DNA from: Actinomadura citrea
Lineage (GTDB): Bacteria; Actinomycetota; Actinomycetes; Streptosporangiales; Streptosporangiaceae
Assembly: GCF_013409045.1 (NCBI RefSeq)
Contig: NZ_JACCBT010000001.1
Span: 4,836,001-4,900,000 of the forward strand
Length of the DNA stretch: 64,000 nucleotides
Direction: 5' to 3'
Shown here one piece after another: positions 50,282-55,113 of the stretch. Position numbers and translations under genes: made by a program. Within the stretch, counting starts at the first letter, position 1. Every line of letters starts with the position of its first letter. The notes beneath the pieces were generated by a model. The model was not told the origin of the DNA. It ran no database searches and saw only the letters and a list, made by a program, of their open reading frames with translations.

Positions 50282-51669
50282 GCACGATCAGGCCGCAGGA
50301 GGCCGTCGAGCGGGCCCTGTCGCTGTCGCGCGCCGACGACTGCGTCGTCATCGCCGACGAGGCGAGCACCGCGAACCTGCGGTGGGCGGGCAACACCCTC
50401 ACCACCAACGGCGTGACCCGCTCCAGCCGCCTCACCGTCATCGCGCTGCGGAACACCGCGGACGGCGTGGCGGCGGGCGTGGTGTCGCGGTCGGCCGTCG
50501 ACGCCGACGGCATCGAGGAGCTGGTGCGCGCCGCGGAGGCCGACGCCGCCGGCAACGAGGCCGCCGAGGACGCCCGGCCGCTGGTCGCCGAGGGGCCGCC
50601 CGGCGGCGCCGCCGGATGGGACGACGAGCCCGCCGAGACCGGGATCGGGGTGTTCGAGGGCTTCGCTCCCGCGCTGGGCGAGGCGTTCGCCGCCGCGCAG
50701 GCCGGCGACCGGCGTCTGTACGGGTTCGCCAACCACGTCCTCACCTCGACGTTCCTCGGCTCCTCGGCGGGGCTGCGGCTGCGCCACGACCAGCCCACGG
50801 GGCTGCTGGAGCTGAACGCCAAGGGCGCGGGCGGCTCGGCGTGGGCGGGCGTCGGCACCCGCGACTTCACCGACGTCGACGTCCCCGCCCTCACCGGCGA
50901 CCTCACCCGGCGGCTGGAGTGGGGCGAGCGGCGCGTCGAGCTGCCGGCCGGGCGGTACGAGACGATCCTGCCGCCGTCCGCCGTCGCCGACCTGATGATC
51001 TACCTGTACTGGTCGGCGGGCGCCCAGGACGCGCAGGACGGCCGGACGGTGTTCAGCGCCCCCGGCGGCGGCACCCGCGTCGGGGAGCGGCTCGCGGACC
51101 TGCCGGTCACCCTGTCCAGCGACCCGGCCGCCCCGGGCATGCAGTGCGCCCCGTTCGTCATCGCGCACGCCTCCAGCCGCGAGTCCTCGGTGTTCGACAA
51201 CGGGCTCGCGCTCGGCGCCACCGACTGGATCCGCGAGGGGACCCTCGCGTCCCTCGCCCAGACCCGGCACTCCGCCGAGCGCACCGGGCTGCCGCTCACC
51301 CCCGCCGTCGACAACCTGGCGATGAGGGGGCCGGACGGCGGCGCGTCCCTGGAGGAGATGGTCGCCCGTACCGAGCGCGGGCTGCTGCTGACCTGCCTCT
51401 GGTACATCCGGGAGGTCGACCCGCAGAGCCTGCTGCTGACCGGCCTCACCCGCGACGGCGTCTACCTCGTCGAGGACGGCGAGGTCGTCGGGGCCGTGAA
51501 CAACTTCCGGTTCAACGAGAGCCCCGTCGACCTGCTGTCGCGGATCGCCGAGGTCGGCGAGACCGGGCCGACGCTGCCGCGCGAGTGGTCGGACTACTTC
51601 ACCCGCGCCGCCATGCCGGCGATCCGGGTCCCCGACTTCCACATGTCGACGGTGAGCCAGGCCACCTGA
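50278..51669 (+). CDS. tldE: TldE/PmbA protease partner subunit
   Basis: 463 residues. It aligns with TldD in the N-terminal half (LRWAGNTLTTNGVTRSSRLTVIAL) but lacks HExxxH, as expected for the non-catalytic TldE partner. The C-terminal region (LLLTCLWYIREVDPQSLLLTGLTRDGVYLVEDGE) is typical. GTG 50278 overlaps the tldD stop. Ends before a 97-base gap to the convergent dodecin gene. Confidence 0.93.
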   Translation: MSTIRPQEAVERALSLSRADDCVVIADEASTANLRWAGNTLTTNGVTRSSRLTVIALRNTADGVAAGVVSRSAVDADGIEELVRAAEADAAGNEAAEDARPLVAEGPPGGAAGWDDEPAETGIGVFEGFAPALGEAFAAAQAGDRRLYGFANHVLTSTFLGSSAGLRLRHDQPTGLLELNAKGAGGSAWAGVGTRDFTDVDVPALTGDLTRRLEWGERRVELPAGRYETILPPSAVADLMIYLYWSAGAQDAQDGRTVFSAPGGGTRVGERLADLPVTLSSDPAAPGMQCAPFVIAHASSRESSVFDNGLALGATDWIREGTLASLAQTRHSAERTGLPLTPAVDNLAMRGPDGGASLEEMVARTERGLLLTCLWYIREVDPQSLLLTGLTRDGVYLVEDGEVVGAVNNFRFNESPVDLLSRIAEVGETGPTLPREWSDYFTRAAMPAIRVPDFHMSTVSQAT

Positions 51670-51766
51670 GCCGTCGCGGCCGGGGACGTCGGGAGCACGC
51701 GCCGGCGCCCCCGGCCGCGGCGGTCCGGACACCGGGCGGCACCCGGCGCCGGGCCCGGCGCGCGCG

Positions 51767-51979
51767 TCAGCCGTCCTCCAGGCGGAAGCCGACCTTCATG
51801 GTGACCTGGAAGTGGCCCACCTCACCGTCCTCGATGTGGCCGCGGACCTCGGTCACCTCGAACCAGTCCAGGTGCCGCAGGGTCTGCGAGGCGCGCCGGA
51901 CGCCGTTGCGTATCGCGGCATCGACGGACTCCGGCGAGGTCCCCACGATCTCGGTCACGCGGTACGTGCGATCGGTCAT
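51767..51979 (-). CDS. Dodecin flavin-binding protein
   Basis: 70 residues from ATG 51979 with GGAGGA upstream. Dodecin signature: YRVTEIVGTSPESVDAAIRN, then RHLDWFEVTEVRGHIEDG with the flavin-stacking Trp, and VGHFQVTMKVGFRLED. Twelve copies assemble into a hollow shell that stores flavin and limits flavin photochemistry. Divergent from the DUF3099 gene with 68 bases between starts. Confidence 0.94.
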   Translation of the reverse strand: MTDRTYRVTEIVGTSPESVDAAIRNGVRRASQTLRHLDWFEVTEVRGHIEDGEVGHFQVTMKVGFRLEDG

Positions 51980-52035
51980 CGATTCCTCCAGAGGTTTTGC
52001 CCCGTACTGCCGGTGCAGGTCGGACTCCATGGGCT

Positions 52036-52041
52036 TACCGT
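52036..52041 (+). promoter_or_regulatory. Leaderless -10 box of the DUF3099 gene
   Basis: TACCGT six bases before GTG 52048; an overlapping ATG at 52045 is only three bases away, so GTG is favoured. Confidence 0.4.
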
Positions 52042-52047
52042 GGAATG

Positions 52048-52383
52048 GTGAAGGTCAATCCCCGCCACCACCGCGAGCCGGCGGTCTACACGGTCACCGA
52101 CGCTCCCCGCCCCATGTCGGAGGACATCGGCCACCGCCAGCGCCGGTACCTGATGTCCATGGGCGTCCGCACGATCTGCTTCGTGGGGGCGGTGGTGGCC
52201 GCCGTCGCGGGTGCGCCGTGGTGGCTCGCGCTGCTCATGGTGGTCGGCGCCGCCGTGCTCCCCTACGTCGCCGTGATCTTCGCCAACGGAGGGCGCGAGC
52301 CGACCGCCCCGGCGGCTTACGACGACCGTCTTCGCGGGGAACAGAAGCCGGTTTCCGGACAGCGACCGGAAATCCGGTCGTGA
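52048..52383 (+). CDS. DUF3099 family small membrane protein
   Basis: 111 residues. A cytoplasmic N-terminus (EPAVYTVTDAPRPMSEDIGHRQRRYLMSMGVRT) is the conserved core of DUF3099, followed by two hydrophobic helices (about residues 45-63 and 66-85) and an Arg-rich tail. Function unknown; it is a common actinobacterial core gene. It ends eight bases before the -35 of the small RNA promoter. Confidence 0.85.
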   Translation: MKVNPRHHREPAVYTVTDAPRPMSEDIGHRQRRYLMSMGVRTICFVGAVVAAVAGAPWWLALLMVVGAAVLPYVAVIFANGGREPTAPAAYDDRLRGEQKPVSGQRPEIRS

Positions 52384-52390
52384 CATTCTC

Positions 52391-52422
52391 TTGACTAACC
52401 GCGGGGGGTTTCGGTGTACGAT
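52391..52422 (+). promoter_or_regulatory. Candidate promoter of the C-loop small RNA
   Basis: TTGACT (52391-52396) and TACGAT (52417-52422), separated by a rather long 20-base spacer. The predicted transcript start near 52429 coincides with the first hairpin arm. Confidence 0.5.
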
Positions 52423-52429
52423 TTGTACC

Positions 52430-52540
52430 GGCGCTCTGGTCCCCCGTCGGGGCGCCCTTGCCGGTGTTCCGGGCCCCCGTCGGAACACCGATGATGCGGC
52501 GCCGGGTGGATTGCCCCCGTATCCACCCGGCGCCGCTTTT
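52430..52540 (+). ncRNA. 6C-RNA-like small RNA with three C-loop hairpins
   Basis: About 111 bases. Hairpin 1: 10-bp stem (52430-52439 with 52447-52456, including G-U pairs), loop TCCCCCG. Hairpin 2: perfect 10-bp stem (52462-52471 with 52481-52490), loop GGCCCCCGT. Hairpin 3: perfect 16-bp stem (52496-52511 with 52521-52536), loop TGCCCCCGT, followed by TTTT as an intrinsic terminator. The actinobacterial 6C RNA family has two hairpins with C-rich loops (six or more Cs) near its 3' end, which fits hairpins 2 and 3, although only five Cs are present here and hairpin 1 is extra. C-rich loops are thought to pair with G-rich mRNA sites. Confidence 0.75.
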
Positions 52541-52687
52541 CACTTTCCGGGGTTTCCGCTGAAACTTCACGGCGTCGCGGATGACCTTCCCCGCACCTTC
52601 GCTTGACCGGCCGCCCGGCCGACGCACATCCCCGCGAGAACGCAAGCCCTCCCCGCTGTCCTGGTCCGGCCATGACCCGAAACCCGG

Positions 52688-52721
52688 CCCCGCCGAACCC
52701 CGCGCGCCCGGTTCGGCGGGG
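52688..52721. other. 12-bp perfect inverted repeat in the 52.5-53.1 kb gap
   Basis: Arms 52688-52699 and 52710-52721, 10-base loop. It lies in a 550-base stretch (52541-53091) where I see no credible gene; there is no U-tract. It could be a remnant terminator or part of the leader of the VWA gene. Confidence 0.45.
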
Positions 52722-52999
52722 GGCGGGGCGTTCCCGCGCGGGCACCCTCCGCCGGGACGGCCCGATCGTGGACCGATCCTTCCCCGCACCCGCTGCGTAC
52801 TGCTGAGCGGCACCACCGTCCCCGCGTCCCAGGGGAGGTTCCGTGGACCCGGATTCCGGCCGGACGACCGCCACCGCGTGGAACGCCCCGCGCCGCGCGC
52901 CGAGGCGCCCGGCCCGCCGTCCTGACCGCGCGTCCCCATCCCGGGCCTCCCGCCCCCTTGACGGAGGCGGCCGATGAGACGAACATCACAGCTGCCTCA

Positions 53000-53028
53000 C
53001 CTGAGACATATCGACCATGTGTCTCAGG
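53000..53028 (+). promoter_or_regulatory. Inverted repeat upstream of the VWA protein gene
   Basis: CCTGAGACA (53000-53008) and TGTCTCAGG (53020-53028) with an 11-base spacer, 64 bases before the ATG. It is less GC-rich than its surroundings and looks like an operator. Confidence 0.45.
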
Positions 53029-53091
53029 GGCGGGCCGGCCACCCACGGCGCGACGCGGCCCGCAGCCCCGCCCGGGAAACGGAGATCGGCC

Positions 53092-55113
53092 ATGAGCGCA
53101 TTCGACGACGTGCCCGAGTGGGCGCCTCGGAACCAGCCGGAACCGGGCGGCCCCGAGTCCCCCTACACCTTTCTCGGGGCCTCGCACCCGGCCGGGCCGC
53201 CGCCCCGCCGCGCGGCGGGCGGGCATGAGGGCGAGCCCTTCGACGCCTTCAGCAGACCCGACCGCACGCCGCGTCCCCCGGGCCCGGCGCACGCCGCCGC
53301 CAGGCAGCCGCGAGGGCCGTGGGCTCTCGGCAGGGGCCGCCCGCCGCGGCGGGTCGGCGGGATCCTGCTCGGACCGCTGGCGGGCGCGATCGGCCTGGTG
53401 CTGCTCACCGGGTTCGGCGCGTACGCGCTCGCCTCGCCGGGCGACGGCTGCTCCGGCGGCGCCGCGCTGACGCTCGACGTGGCCGCGGCGCCGGACGTCG
53501 CGCCCGCGGTCGCGCGGTCGGCGGGGCGCTTCAACGACGCGGGGCACCGGGTGGACGGGCGGTGCGCCCGCGCGCGGGTGCGCGCCGCCGATCCCGCCGC
53601 GGTGGCGACGCTGCTGTCCGGCAAGGGCGTGGCCGGCGTCGCCCGCAGGCCGGACGTCTGGATCCCCGACTCCTCGCTGTGGACCAAGCTCGTCGGCGGT
53701 TCCGGGCGGGCCCCGGCCGCCGGCGCTCCGGGACGGCCCGCCGGGATCGCCTCGTCCCCGATCGTCCTGGCCGCGCCGCGCGGCCTGGCGACGCAGCTGC
53801 GCAACCTCGGCGCCCCGGAGCGGCCTGCCTGGAGGGACCTGCTCGCCGCGGCCGGGACGGCCTCGGGCGCCGAGCGGGATCCGGCCGCCGGGCCCGGCAC
53901 CGGGGTCATCCCTCCGCGGCTGTTCCGGCTCCAGGTCCCCGACCCGGCCCGCAGCGCGACCGGCATGGGCTCGCTGATCCTGGCCGGTGCGGTGCTGGGC
54001 GGCGCCCCCGGCGGGGAGGCGTCGTTCACCGGTGTGGTCCGCACGATCCGGGAGGGCGTCGCCGTCTCCGTGGACGCCGCGTTCACGGCGTTCGCGACGT
54101 CCGCCTCGCCCGGCCAGGGCGAGGCCGACCGCTACCCGGTCGCGATGGCGCCCGAGCAGGCGGTGTTCGCCTACAACGCGCGGCGTCCGGCCGAGCCGGC
54201 CGTCGCGGTGTACCCGGAGGAGGGGACGGTCTACCTCGACTATCCGGTCGCCGTCCTGGCGGAGGACCGGGCCAAGGCGGGCGCCGCGCGGATGCTGGAG
54301 ACGGCCCTCGCGGACAGGGCGACCCGGGACGACCTGCGGCGGCTGGGCTTCCGGGCACCCGGCGGAGCGGCGCCCGCGTCGTTCTCCCCGCGGACCGGCC
54401 TGGACCCGCGACCCCCGCGGGCGCTCCCCGAGACGCCGGCGGCGGACGTGCGGCGCACCATGCAGTCGTGGGCCCAGCTGTCGCTGAGCATCCGGATGCT
54501 GAGCATCATCGACGTGTCGGGGTCCATGGACGAGGGGGTCGCGCCGGGCGTGACGCGGCTGCAGTCCACGGTGCGCACCGCCCAGGGCGGGCTCGCGCTG
54601 CTGCCGGACGACAGCGAGCTCGGCCAGTGGATCTTCTCCACGGACCTGCAGGGCGGCCGGGACTGGCGGGAGCTGGTCAGTGTGGGACCGCTCAACCAGC
54701 GGCTGGGCTCGGCGACCCGGCGGCAGCTCGTGCTGAGCGCGTTCGCGCGGATCCGGGTGAAGGAGCACGGCGACACCGGCCTGTACGACACGGTGATGGC
54801 CGCGTTCGACTACATGAAGCGGACCTACAAGCCCGAGTACGTGAACTCCGTCCTCCTGTGGACGGACGGGGAGAACGAGGACCCGCGCGGCCCGTCCCTG
54901 GAGGAGACCCTCGACCACATGCGGCGCGAGTACGACCCGGAGCGCCCCGTCCAGGTCAACATGCTGGGCTACGGATCGGACGTGGACGTCAACGAGCTGC
55001 GGCGCATCGCGCAGGTGACGCACGGGGACGCCTATGTGGCCGAGACGCCCGGGCAGATCCAGGCGATCTTCCTCAGGGCCGTCTCGCGCCGGGTCTGCGA
55101 GCCCGACTGCTGA
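53092..55113 (+). CDS. Membrane-anchored solute-binding-like protein with C-terminal VWA domain
   Basis: 673 residues from ATG 53092 (GGAG upstream). The disordered cytoplasmic N-terminus (1-85) is rich in Pro, Gly and Arg; one membrane helix (about 89-112) follows; then a periplasmic-binding-protein-like domain (about 120-440: FNDAGHRVDGRCARARVRAADP, PIVLAAPRGLA); then a von Willebrand A domain with an intact metal site DVSGSMDE (Asp474, Ser476, Ser478) and LLWTDGENED. Such fused proteins are widespread in actinomycetes and probably mediate metal-dependent adhesion or complex assembly outside the membrane. Specific role unknown. Confidence 0.85.
   Translation: MSAFDDVPEWAPRNQPEPGGPESPYTFLGASHPAGPPPRRAAGGHEGEPFDAFSRPDRTPRPPGPAHAAARQPRGPWALGRGRPPRRVGGILLGPLAGAIGLVLLTGFGAYALASPGDGCSGGAALTLDVAAAPDVAPAVARSAGRFNDAGHRVDGRCARARVRAADPAAVATLLSGKGVAGVARRPDVWIPDSSLWTKLVGGSGRAPAAGAPGRPAGIASSPIVLAAPRGLATQLRNLGAPERPAWRDLLAAAGTASGAERDPAAGPGTGVIPPRLFRLQVPDPARSATGMGSLILAGAVLGGAPGGEASFTGVVRTIREGVAVSVDAAFTAFATSASPGQGEADRYPVAMAPEQAVFAYNARRPAEPAVAVYPEEGTVYLDYPVAVLAEDRAKAGAARMLETALADRATRDDLRRLGFRAPGGAAPASFSPRTGLDPRPPRALPETPAADVRRTMQSWAQLSLSIRMLSIIDVSGSMDEGVAPGVTRLQSTVRTAQGGLALLPDDSELGQWIFSTDLQGGRDWRELVSVGPLNQRLGSATRRQLVLSAFARIRVKEHGDTGLYDTVMAAFDYMKRTYKPEYVNSVLLWTDGENEDPRGPSLEETLDHMRREYDPERPVQVNMLGYGSDVDVNELRRIAQVTHGDAYVAETPGQIQAIFLRAVSRRVCEPDC

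Follow-up and report, generated by a model that had tools for sequence, protein, structure and literature searches.

The 64-kb stretch of DNA analyzed here (referred to as the window) raises the question of whether three adjacent C-loop hairpins, located just downstream of a DUF3099 gene, belong to an RNA gene of their own, which RNAs are related to it, and what the repeated loop might recognize. The C-loop small RNA gene at window positions 52430-52536 (+) is referred to as the three-loop RNA.

Structure and location of the three-loop RNA

The first-pass annotation had described three adjacent hairpins with CCCCCG loops, behind TTGACT/TACGAT promoter words and followed by a U-tract. The hairpins were borne out by direct reading, by the MFE fold, and by a scan for C5-loop hairpins, and both promoter words and the TTTT after hairpin 3 were present (Table 1). 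Each of the three loops carried five Cs and then G, in agreement with the count of five rather than six that had been given.

Table 1. Features of the three-loop RNA locus and its neighbors (window coordinates)
Feature	Position	Strand	Evidence and remarks
DUF3099 gene (PF11298)	52048..52383	+	Pfam 95.7 bits; directly 5' of three-loop RNA
-35 word TTGACT, three-loop RNA promoter	52391..52396	+	Read directly; arrangement kept in 95/95 distinct loci
-10 word TACGAT, three-loop RNA promoter	52417..52422	+	Read directly; GTG before it in 95/95 loci
Predicted transcript, ~112 nt	52429..52540	+	Inferred from sequence, fold, and promoter words
Hairpin 1, 10 bp, loop TCCCCCG at 52440-52446	52430..52456	+	7/10 pairs changed on both sides; 99.3% of cells paired
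Hairpin 2, 11 bp, loop GCCCCCG at 52473-52479	52462..52490	+	6/11 pairs changed on both sides; 99.1% paired
Hairpin 3, terminator-like, 16 bp, loop TGCCCCCGT at 52512-52520	52496..52536	+	7/16 pairs changed on both sides; 99.8% paired
Short U-tract TTTT	52537..52540	+	Read directly after hairpin 3
Solute-binding/VWA gene	53017-55113		3' neighbor of three-loop RNA; Pfam profile search

The stop codon of DUF3099 is separated from the -35 word by 7 nt. The predicted 5' end of the RNA was placed ~7 nt past the -10 word, and its 3' end was placed from the terminator-like hairpin. In the genome of the window (G000), the covariance model match to the three-loop RNA spans G000:C1:4888428-4888544. The 11 bp of hairpin 2 include a G-U closing pair; with that pair open, the loop has 9 nt.

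The MFE fold of 52423-52545 consisted of the three hairpins, with an energy of -75.4 kcal/mol (z = -6.2), and none of 200 shuffled sequences was as stable. A few pairs within loop 3 were added by both the MFE and the consensus folds, and the MFE fold added one within loop 1; the actual loop 3 may be more compact than shown here. Scanning both strands of the window for C5-loop hairpins with stems of at least 8 bp returned exactly three, namely, hairpins 1-3. Such hairpins arose by chance at a mean of 3.1 (maximum 11) in 60 first-order Markov simulations, but three of them inside 160 nt occurred in 0/60 simulations, so that their clustering, and not their number, is unusual.

Two inverted repeats were observed at the flanks. 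TTTCCGG-N8-CCGGAAA lies in the final codons of DUF3099 (window 52352-52373) and is retained in many aligned genomes of the genus. A perfect 9-bp repeat, CCTGAGACA-N11-TGTCTCAGG (window 53000-53028), lies 5' of the solute-binding/VWA gene and looks like an operator.

Conservation, covariation, and independence from DUF3099

In a DNA search of 40 genomes, the three-loop RNA was found in 25 (the window's own included). Every one of the 23 other genomes examined from the genus had it, as did G024, a member of another family within the order; it was found neither in the 12 other genomes of the class nor in the three sampled from a third family. When the window's family was sampled more widely, the RNA was present in 145 of 150 genomes (own included), representing 65 of 68 genera, with Nonomuraea gerenzanensis (order Streptosporangiales) among the matches. 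The sequence just 3' of the RNA diverged fast, even inside the genus.

From the family, 111 loci were taken (some genomes twice), which gave 96 distinct sequences; 60 sequences less than ~95% alike by ungapped comparison were used for the structure alignment. The three-hairpin structure was paired in 99.5% of the cells of this alignment, in comparison with 34-56% for slid structures. Changes on both sides were observed in 20 of 37 pairs (131 cells); the averages over 500 shuffles were 10.0 pairs and 34.9 cells, and none of the shuffles was as high. The number of further pair types (43) was weakly above the shuffles, 18 of 500 of which reached 43. The stem-maintenance check suggested in the first-pass annotation thus came out positively, all three stems being kept by compensatory changes. 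There were 220 G-U cells against 4 A-C cells, indicating that the + strand is the RNA strand.

The loops were conserved far more strictly than the rest, with a mean majority identity of 99.9% in loop columns, 90% in stems, and 67% in linkers. The complete word CCCCCGU was found in 52, 58, and 60 of the 60 sequences for loops 1, 2, and 3, respectively; the variant CCCCCGC occupied loop 1 in seven sequences and loop 2 in one, and L129 had four Cs in both loop 1 and loop 2. A strict C5 hairpin scan of the 111 family loci found three such hairpins in 108, two in 2, and one in 1. These results suggest that the loops are likely the functional part of the three-loop RNA. The earlier argument for this had been that the loops are identical while the stems differ, and its first half agrees with the identity of the loop columns, whereas stems 1 and 2 are not unrelated: in many members both contain GCG-TC-GG/CGGA-CGC, and either one looks like a copy of the other.

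The region might instead encode a small protein, as a 71-codon open frame (52391-52606) overlaps the three-loop RNA. However, the linkers vary by 1-3 bases among relatives, which shifts the reading frame, and the conserved pattern tracks base pairs rather than codons. The coding reading was rejected on both grounds, and its probability appears negligible.

Upstream of the hairpins, the arrangement TTGA(C/T)-N20-TAnnnT, with a spacer of exactly 20 nt and GTG before TAnnnT, was present in 95/95 distinct family loci; the count omits the 96th distinct locus, L074, whose contig starts too near. In the 110 loci besides L074, this arrangement occurred once per locus on the + strand and nowhere else. 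Textbook promoters have spacers of 16-18 nt, and a standard scan with such spacers did not report the TTGACT/TACGAT pair of the window because its spacer is 20 nt. Long spacers of 20 nt occur in activator-dependent promoters of the MerR type. The TTTT end of the RNA was likewise not reported by a terminator scan of the window because the T run is too short.

In 85 of the 111 family loci, DUF3099 lies beside the three-loop RNA on the same strand. With its stop codon just 5' of the RNA in these 85 loci, and with hairpin 3 plus TTTT resembling a terminator, the hairpins could be regarded as nothing more than the 3' end of the DUF3099 message with its terminator. However, termination does not need a fixed loop sequence and would leave two more hairpins idle, and all 95 loci preserve the promoter words that lie between the DUF3099 stop codon and hairpin 1. 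Moreover, 24 loci of one branch (L113-L136) have no DUF3099 within ~1.5 kb on either side according to a profile search, yet they retain the three-loop RNA and its promoter words, and dodecin (17/24) and PmbA (20/24) are still there; in two further family loci without DUF3099, the contig ends cut the locus. The persistence of the RNA in these 24 loci speaks against its being a mere DUF3099 terminator or 3' UTR, and this explanation, which we rejected, seems highly improbable.

Relatives across Actinomycetes and comparison with known RNA families

A covariance model built from the 60 family sequences (model R1) gave weak but consistent matches in other families (28-63 bits). We examined 19 of these matches and L186, a second match in a family genome; by inspection, L186 was a chance match and was kept out of the alignments. 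The 19 relatives outside the family had one or two similar C-loop hairpins. Hairpins 2 and 3 were then aligned jointly for 39 sequences, including 16 that lie outside the family; L168, L170, and L173, whose first hairpin lacks a C-loop, were omitted. In this class-wide alignment, 20 of 27 pairs changed on both sides: 8 of 11 pairs in hairpin 2, which was paired in 89.4%, and 12 of 16 pairs in hairpin 3.

The 39-sequence alignment was used to build a second model (R2), the E-values of which are rough owing to a short calibration. At E up to 0.05, R2 matched 150 of 394 genomes of the class, 41 of them from the window's family. L341 (E 0.008) was a chance match by inspection and was left out of the alignments and of the loop count; therefore, some of the weakest R2 matches are due to chance. 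In a sample of the phylum, 10 of 246 genomes matched, nine of them from the class Actinomycetes. None of the five family genomes without a DNA match had an R2 match at E up to 1, and a further family of the order was represented by three genomes, one of which gave a weak R2 match (23.5 bits) and the others none. Among the matches listed in a pattern scan, 78 of 80 records were from Streptomyces, one from Kitasatospora, and one from Streptacidiphilus.

The 3' hairpin carried CCCCCGUG in 19 of 19 relatives not used in the model (20 matches minus the one due to chance) and in 17 of 19 others, the remaining two having CCCCCGUA (L174) and CCCCGUA with four Cs (L175). In a strict scan of two sets of 19 loci outside the family, two C-loop hairpins were found in 14 loci of one set and in 7 of the other, and one C-loop hairpin was found in 4 and 11 loci, respectively; one locus per set had no C-loop hairpin, although the C-loop word was present. 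A third C-loop hairpin was absent from all 38 loci, supporting the previous description of hairpin 1 as additional. On these comparisons, the 3' hairpin is the common core of the class-wide family. Hairpin 1 looks like an addition in this order, since the outside loci show one or two C-loops and 108 of 111 family loci three, and it was possibly derived as a copy of hairpin 2, because their stems resemble each other.

DUF3099 also accompanied the relatives, being located on the same strand just 5' of the RNA in 18 of the 19 R1 loci outside the family (the exception is L168) and in 16 of 20 picked R2 matches not used in the model. Synteny with DUF3099 played no part in the searches, and the outside loci were picked rather than exhaustive. 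In L168, L330, L331, and L340, the C-loop 3' hairpin was present and no DUF3099 was found in the examined stretch; the 3' hairpin may be mobile, or the locus may have been rearranged, in the lineages of L330, L331, and L340. In the Streptomyces-type genome G045, the gene order was tldD, tyrS, DUF3099, RNA, moaA; the latter is SCO1821 in S. coelicolor, according to the accessible text of PMC4021200. A second, weaker DUF3099 match was observed at G000:C1:4918821-4919015 and G045:C1:4151161-4151337, and the G000 copy contains a stop codon. The Streptomyces-type loci (L187-L303) also have a conserved block ~45-66 nt 5' of the RNA, with CTCAGATCAATC in 79 of 107 distinct copies and the full block AGAAAAGCTCAGATCAATCATG in 44 of 107. 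The CTCAGATCAATC block precedes the -10-like TGACATACT, found in 103 of 107 distinct copies, and may mark either an activator site or the point where the DUF3099 mRNA ends.

No Rfam 15 family reached its cut-off within the 64-kb window, which implies that Rfam-based annotation would pass over the three-loop RNA. The first-pass annotation had proposed kinship with 6C RNA, and this proposal was not supported: a covariance search with RF01066 gave no match in window 51000-54000 up to E 10 and none in 18 family loci or 19 outside loci at E up to 1, and the window's genome has its own 6C RNA at G000:C1:8930147-8930221 (59.5 bits; cut-off 47), 4 Mb from the three-loop RNA. Among 60 genomes of the class, RF01066 matched 41 at E up to 0.01, 33 of them over the cut-off. 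The 6C RNA and the member of the three-loop family were far apart in G084 and G086 (6C over the cut-off) and in G045 (44.2 bits, under it).

B11 and 6C, which we take to be the same RNA, resemble the three-loop RNA as actinobacterial small RNAs whose hairpin loops are rich in C and whose last hairpin is a terminator. This shared plan, as presented in the available portions of PMC8388888 and PMC12395582, would favor a diverged member of the 6C family. However, 6C is defined in the available text of PMC8388888 as a pair of stem-loops that each contain at least six cytosines, whereas the three-loop family has one to three hairpins with CCCCCG, five Cs and then G, and is mostly located beside DUF3099. 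On the model score, the number of Cs, and the separate 6C loci over the cut-off in G000, G084, and G086, 6C membership was rejected and is very unlikely.

In B11 of M. marinum, the C-rich loop of the terminator hairpin pairs with targets (PMC12395582, accessible text). An architectural likeness was also provided by sX13 of Xanthomonas, an RNA of ~115 nt with three stable stems and C-rich apical loops (4C, 4C, 5C) that acts on G-rich motifs near start sites, as the available text of PMC3771888 describes. The three-loop RNA has a similar length and likewise three stems with C-rich loops, but the likeness is one of architecture: sX13 belongs to another phylum and another locus and has an unstructured 5' region, whereas the three-loop RNA has nearly one fixed loop word in all hairpins and a loop number of one to three among lineages.

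Other candidates were considered and rejected. Scr3202 (RF02833), an RNA with two C-rich-loop hairpins in Streptomyces, bears a weak resemblance to the three-loop RNA and scored 29.4 bits (E 0.17) against a cut-off of 52 bits; it was over the cut-off in 10 of 197 class genomes, all of genus g27, and is located elsewhere than the member of the three-loop family in G045 and G084. Burkholderia ncS035 scored 20.0 of 79 bits at this locus (E 0.12), and two relatives gave 21.7-23.9 bits; we took these scores as chance. According to the accessible text of PMC3765725, scr5583 and scr1434 are conserved RNAs of Streptomyces that are expressed at high levels and have C-rich loops. These were set apart from the three-loop family by gene position rather than by sequence comparison: in the available text, they take their names from the genes to their right (SCO5583 and SCO1434), whereas the G045 relative adjoins moaA (SCO1821), and identity with scr1434 was rejected on the position between DUF3099 and moaA.

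The main text of Moody et al. 2013 (PMC3765725), as far as accessible, mentions no scr18xx RNA, and the main text of a 2008 prediction paper (PMC2422843) does not name SCO1818-SCO1821. A literature search of openly licensed main texts found no paper on the three-loop RNA; an unnamed entry in supplementary RNA-seq tables is possible. By sequence comparison, the three-loop RNA has stable stems exposing C-rich loops together with its own promoter and terminator-like signals. As far as searched, it appears to be an undescribed RNA, representing a new family among the C-loop small RNAs, which are themselves a known kind.

Proposed function and biological meaning

We propose, with a probability of about 0.6, that the three-loop RNA is an independent RNA gene of ~112 nt in a class-wide C-loop family, acting in trans through C-loops that would form kissing contacts with G-tracts and block translation. 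The RNA would be made as a free transcript, and its C-loops, above all that of the terminator-like hairpin, would initiate kissing interactions with G-tracts close to the start codons of several mRNAs, the best-matching tract for the loop being ACGGGGG. Translation of the target mRNAs would thereby be blocked. Extra C-loop hairpins, the second in many lineages and the third in the window's family and one neighboring family, would increase avidity or broaden the range of targets. Base pairing to G-tracts close to start codons is considered the most likely mode of action because of the precedents of sX13 and B11, as described in the available portions of their reports.

Candidate targets were searched for in 400 kb from each of two genomes of the genus, in which a simple gene caller found 332 and 302 open frames. 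These gave 154 reciprocal best hits and 138 start windows, after the removal of 16 pairs that lacked an identifiable start codon or upstream sequence. In these windows, CGGGGG was neither more frequent nor more conserved than permuted words: it was conserved in both genomes in one of the 138 windows (0.4 expected; less than 5% of the genome), in comparison with 1-3 for permuted words, among which GGCGGG and GGGCGG were each conserved in three. ACGGGGG occurred in no start-window pair among the 138, a sample of less than 5% of the genome with simple gene calls. For the 8-nt loop core, 23 conserved strong duplexes were found against a control mean of 14.6, and 5 of 40 shuffled cores reached 23; its mean duplex energy over the 138 windows was weaker than that of 28 of 40 shuffled controls. 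A test of this size has little power and would miss a few dozen targets. The earlier suggestion of pairing with G-rich ribosome-binding sites is plausible by analogy; no clear excess of such sites was observed in the 138 start windows (less than 5% of the genome, little power).

The loop is conserved nearly to the letter, a stricter conservation than pairing with G-tracts would seem to require by itself. For this reason, the main rival is a protein docking site: the RNA would titrate or scaffold a protein recognizing the hairpin-loop word CCCCCG(U), much as CsrB-type decoys present repeated loops to an RNA-binding protein. The same loop on three stems, its near letter-for-letter conservation, its copy number of one to three between lineages, and the lack of clear backing for G-tract pairing in the target test are all consistent with a decoy. 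However, two C-loop RNAs that have been studied experimentally, sX13 and B11, pair with mRNA, as stated in the accessible text of PMC3771888 and PMC12395582, and we regard the protein decoy as rather unlikely.

The three-loop RNA has a clear address, 3' of DUF3099 and, in the Streptomyces-type genome G045, beside moaA. G084 contains 6C, Scr3202, and a member of the three-loop family, making three C-loop RNAs in one genome, which lets one ask whether C-loop RNAs are a shared regulatory layer in GC-rich bacteria. The differences in loop number between lineages are natural variants.

Actinomycetes make many antibiotics, and few of their small RNAs are understood. Tentatively, the three-loop RNA may represent a core regulatory RNA that serves much of the class, including Streptomyces; the CCCCCGU loop heptamer would be its recognized word, and loops would be added like beads (one, two, or three, depending on the lineage), tuning a global post-transcriptional switch or an RNA-binding protein.
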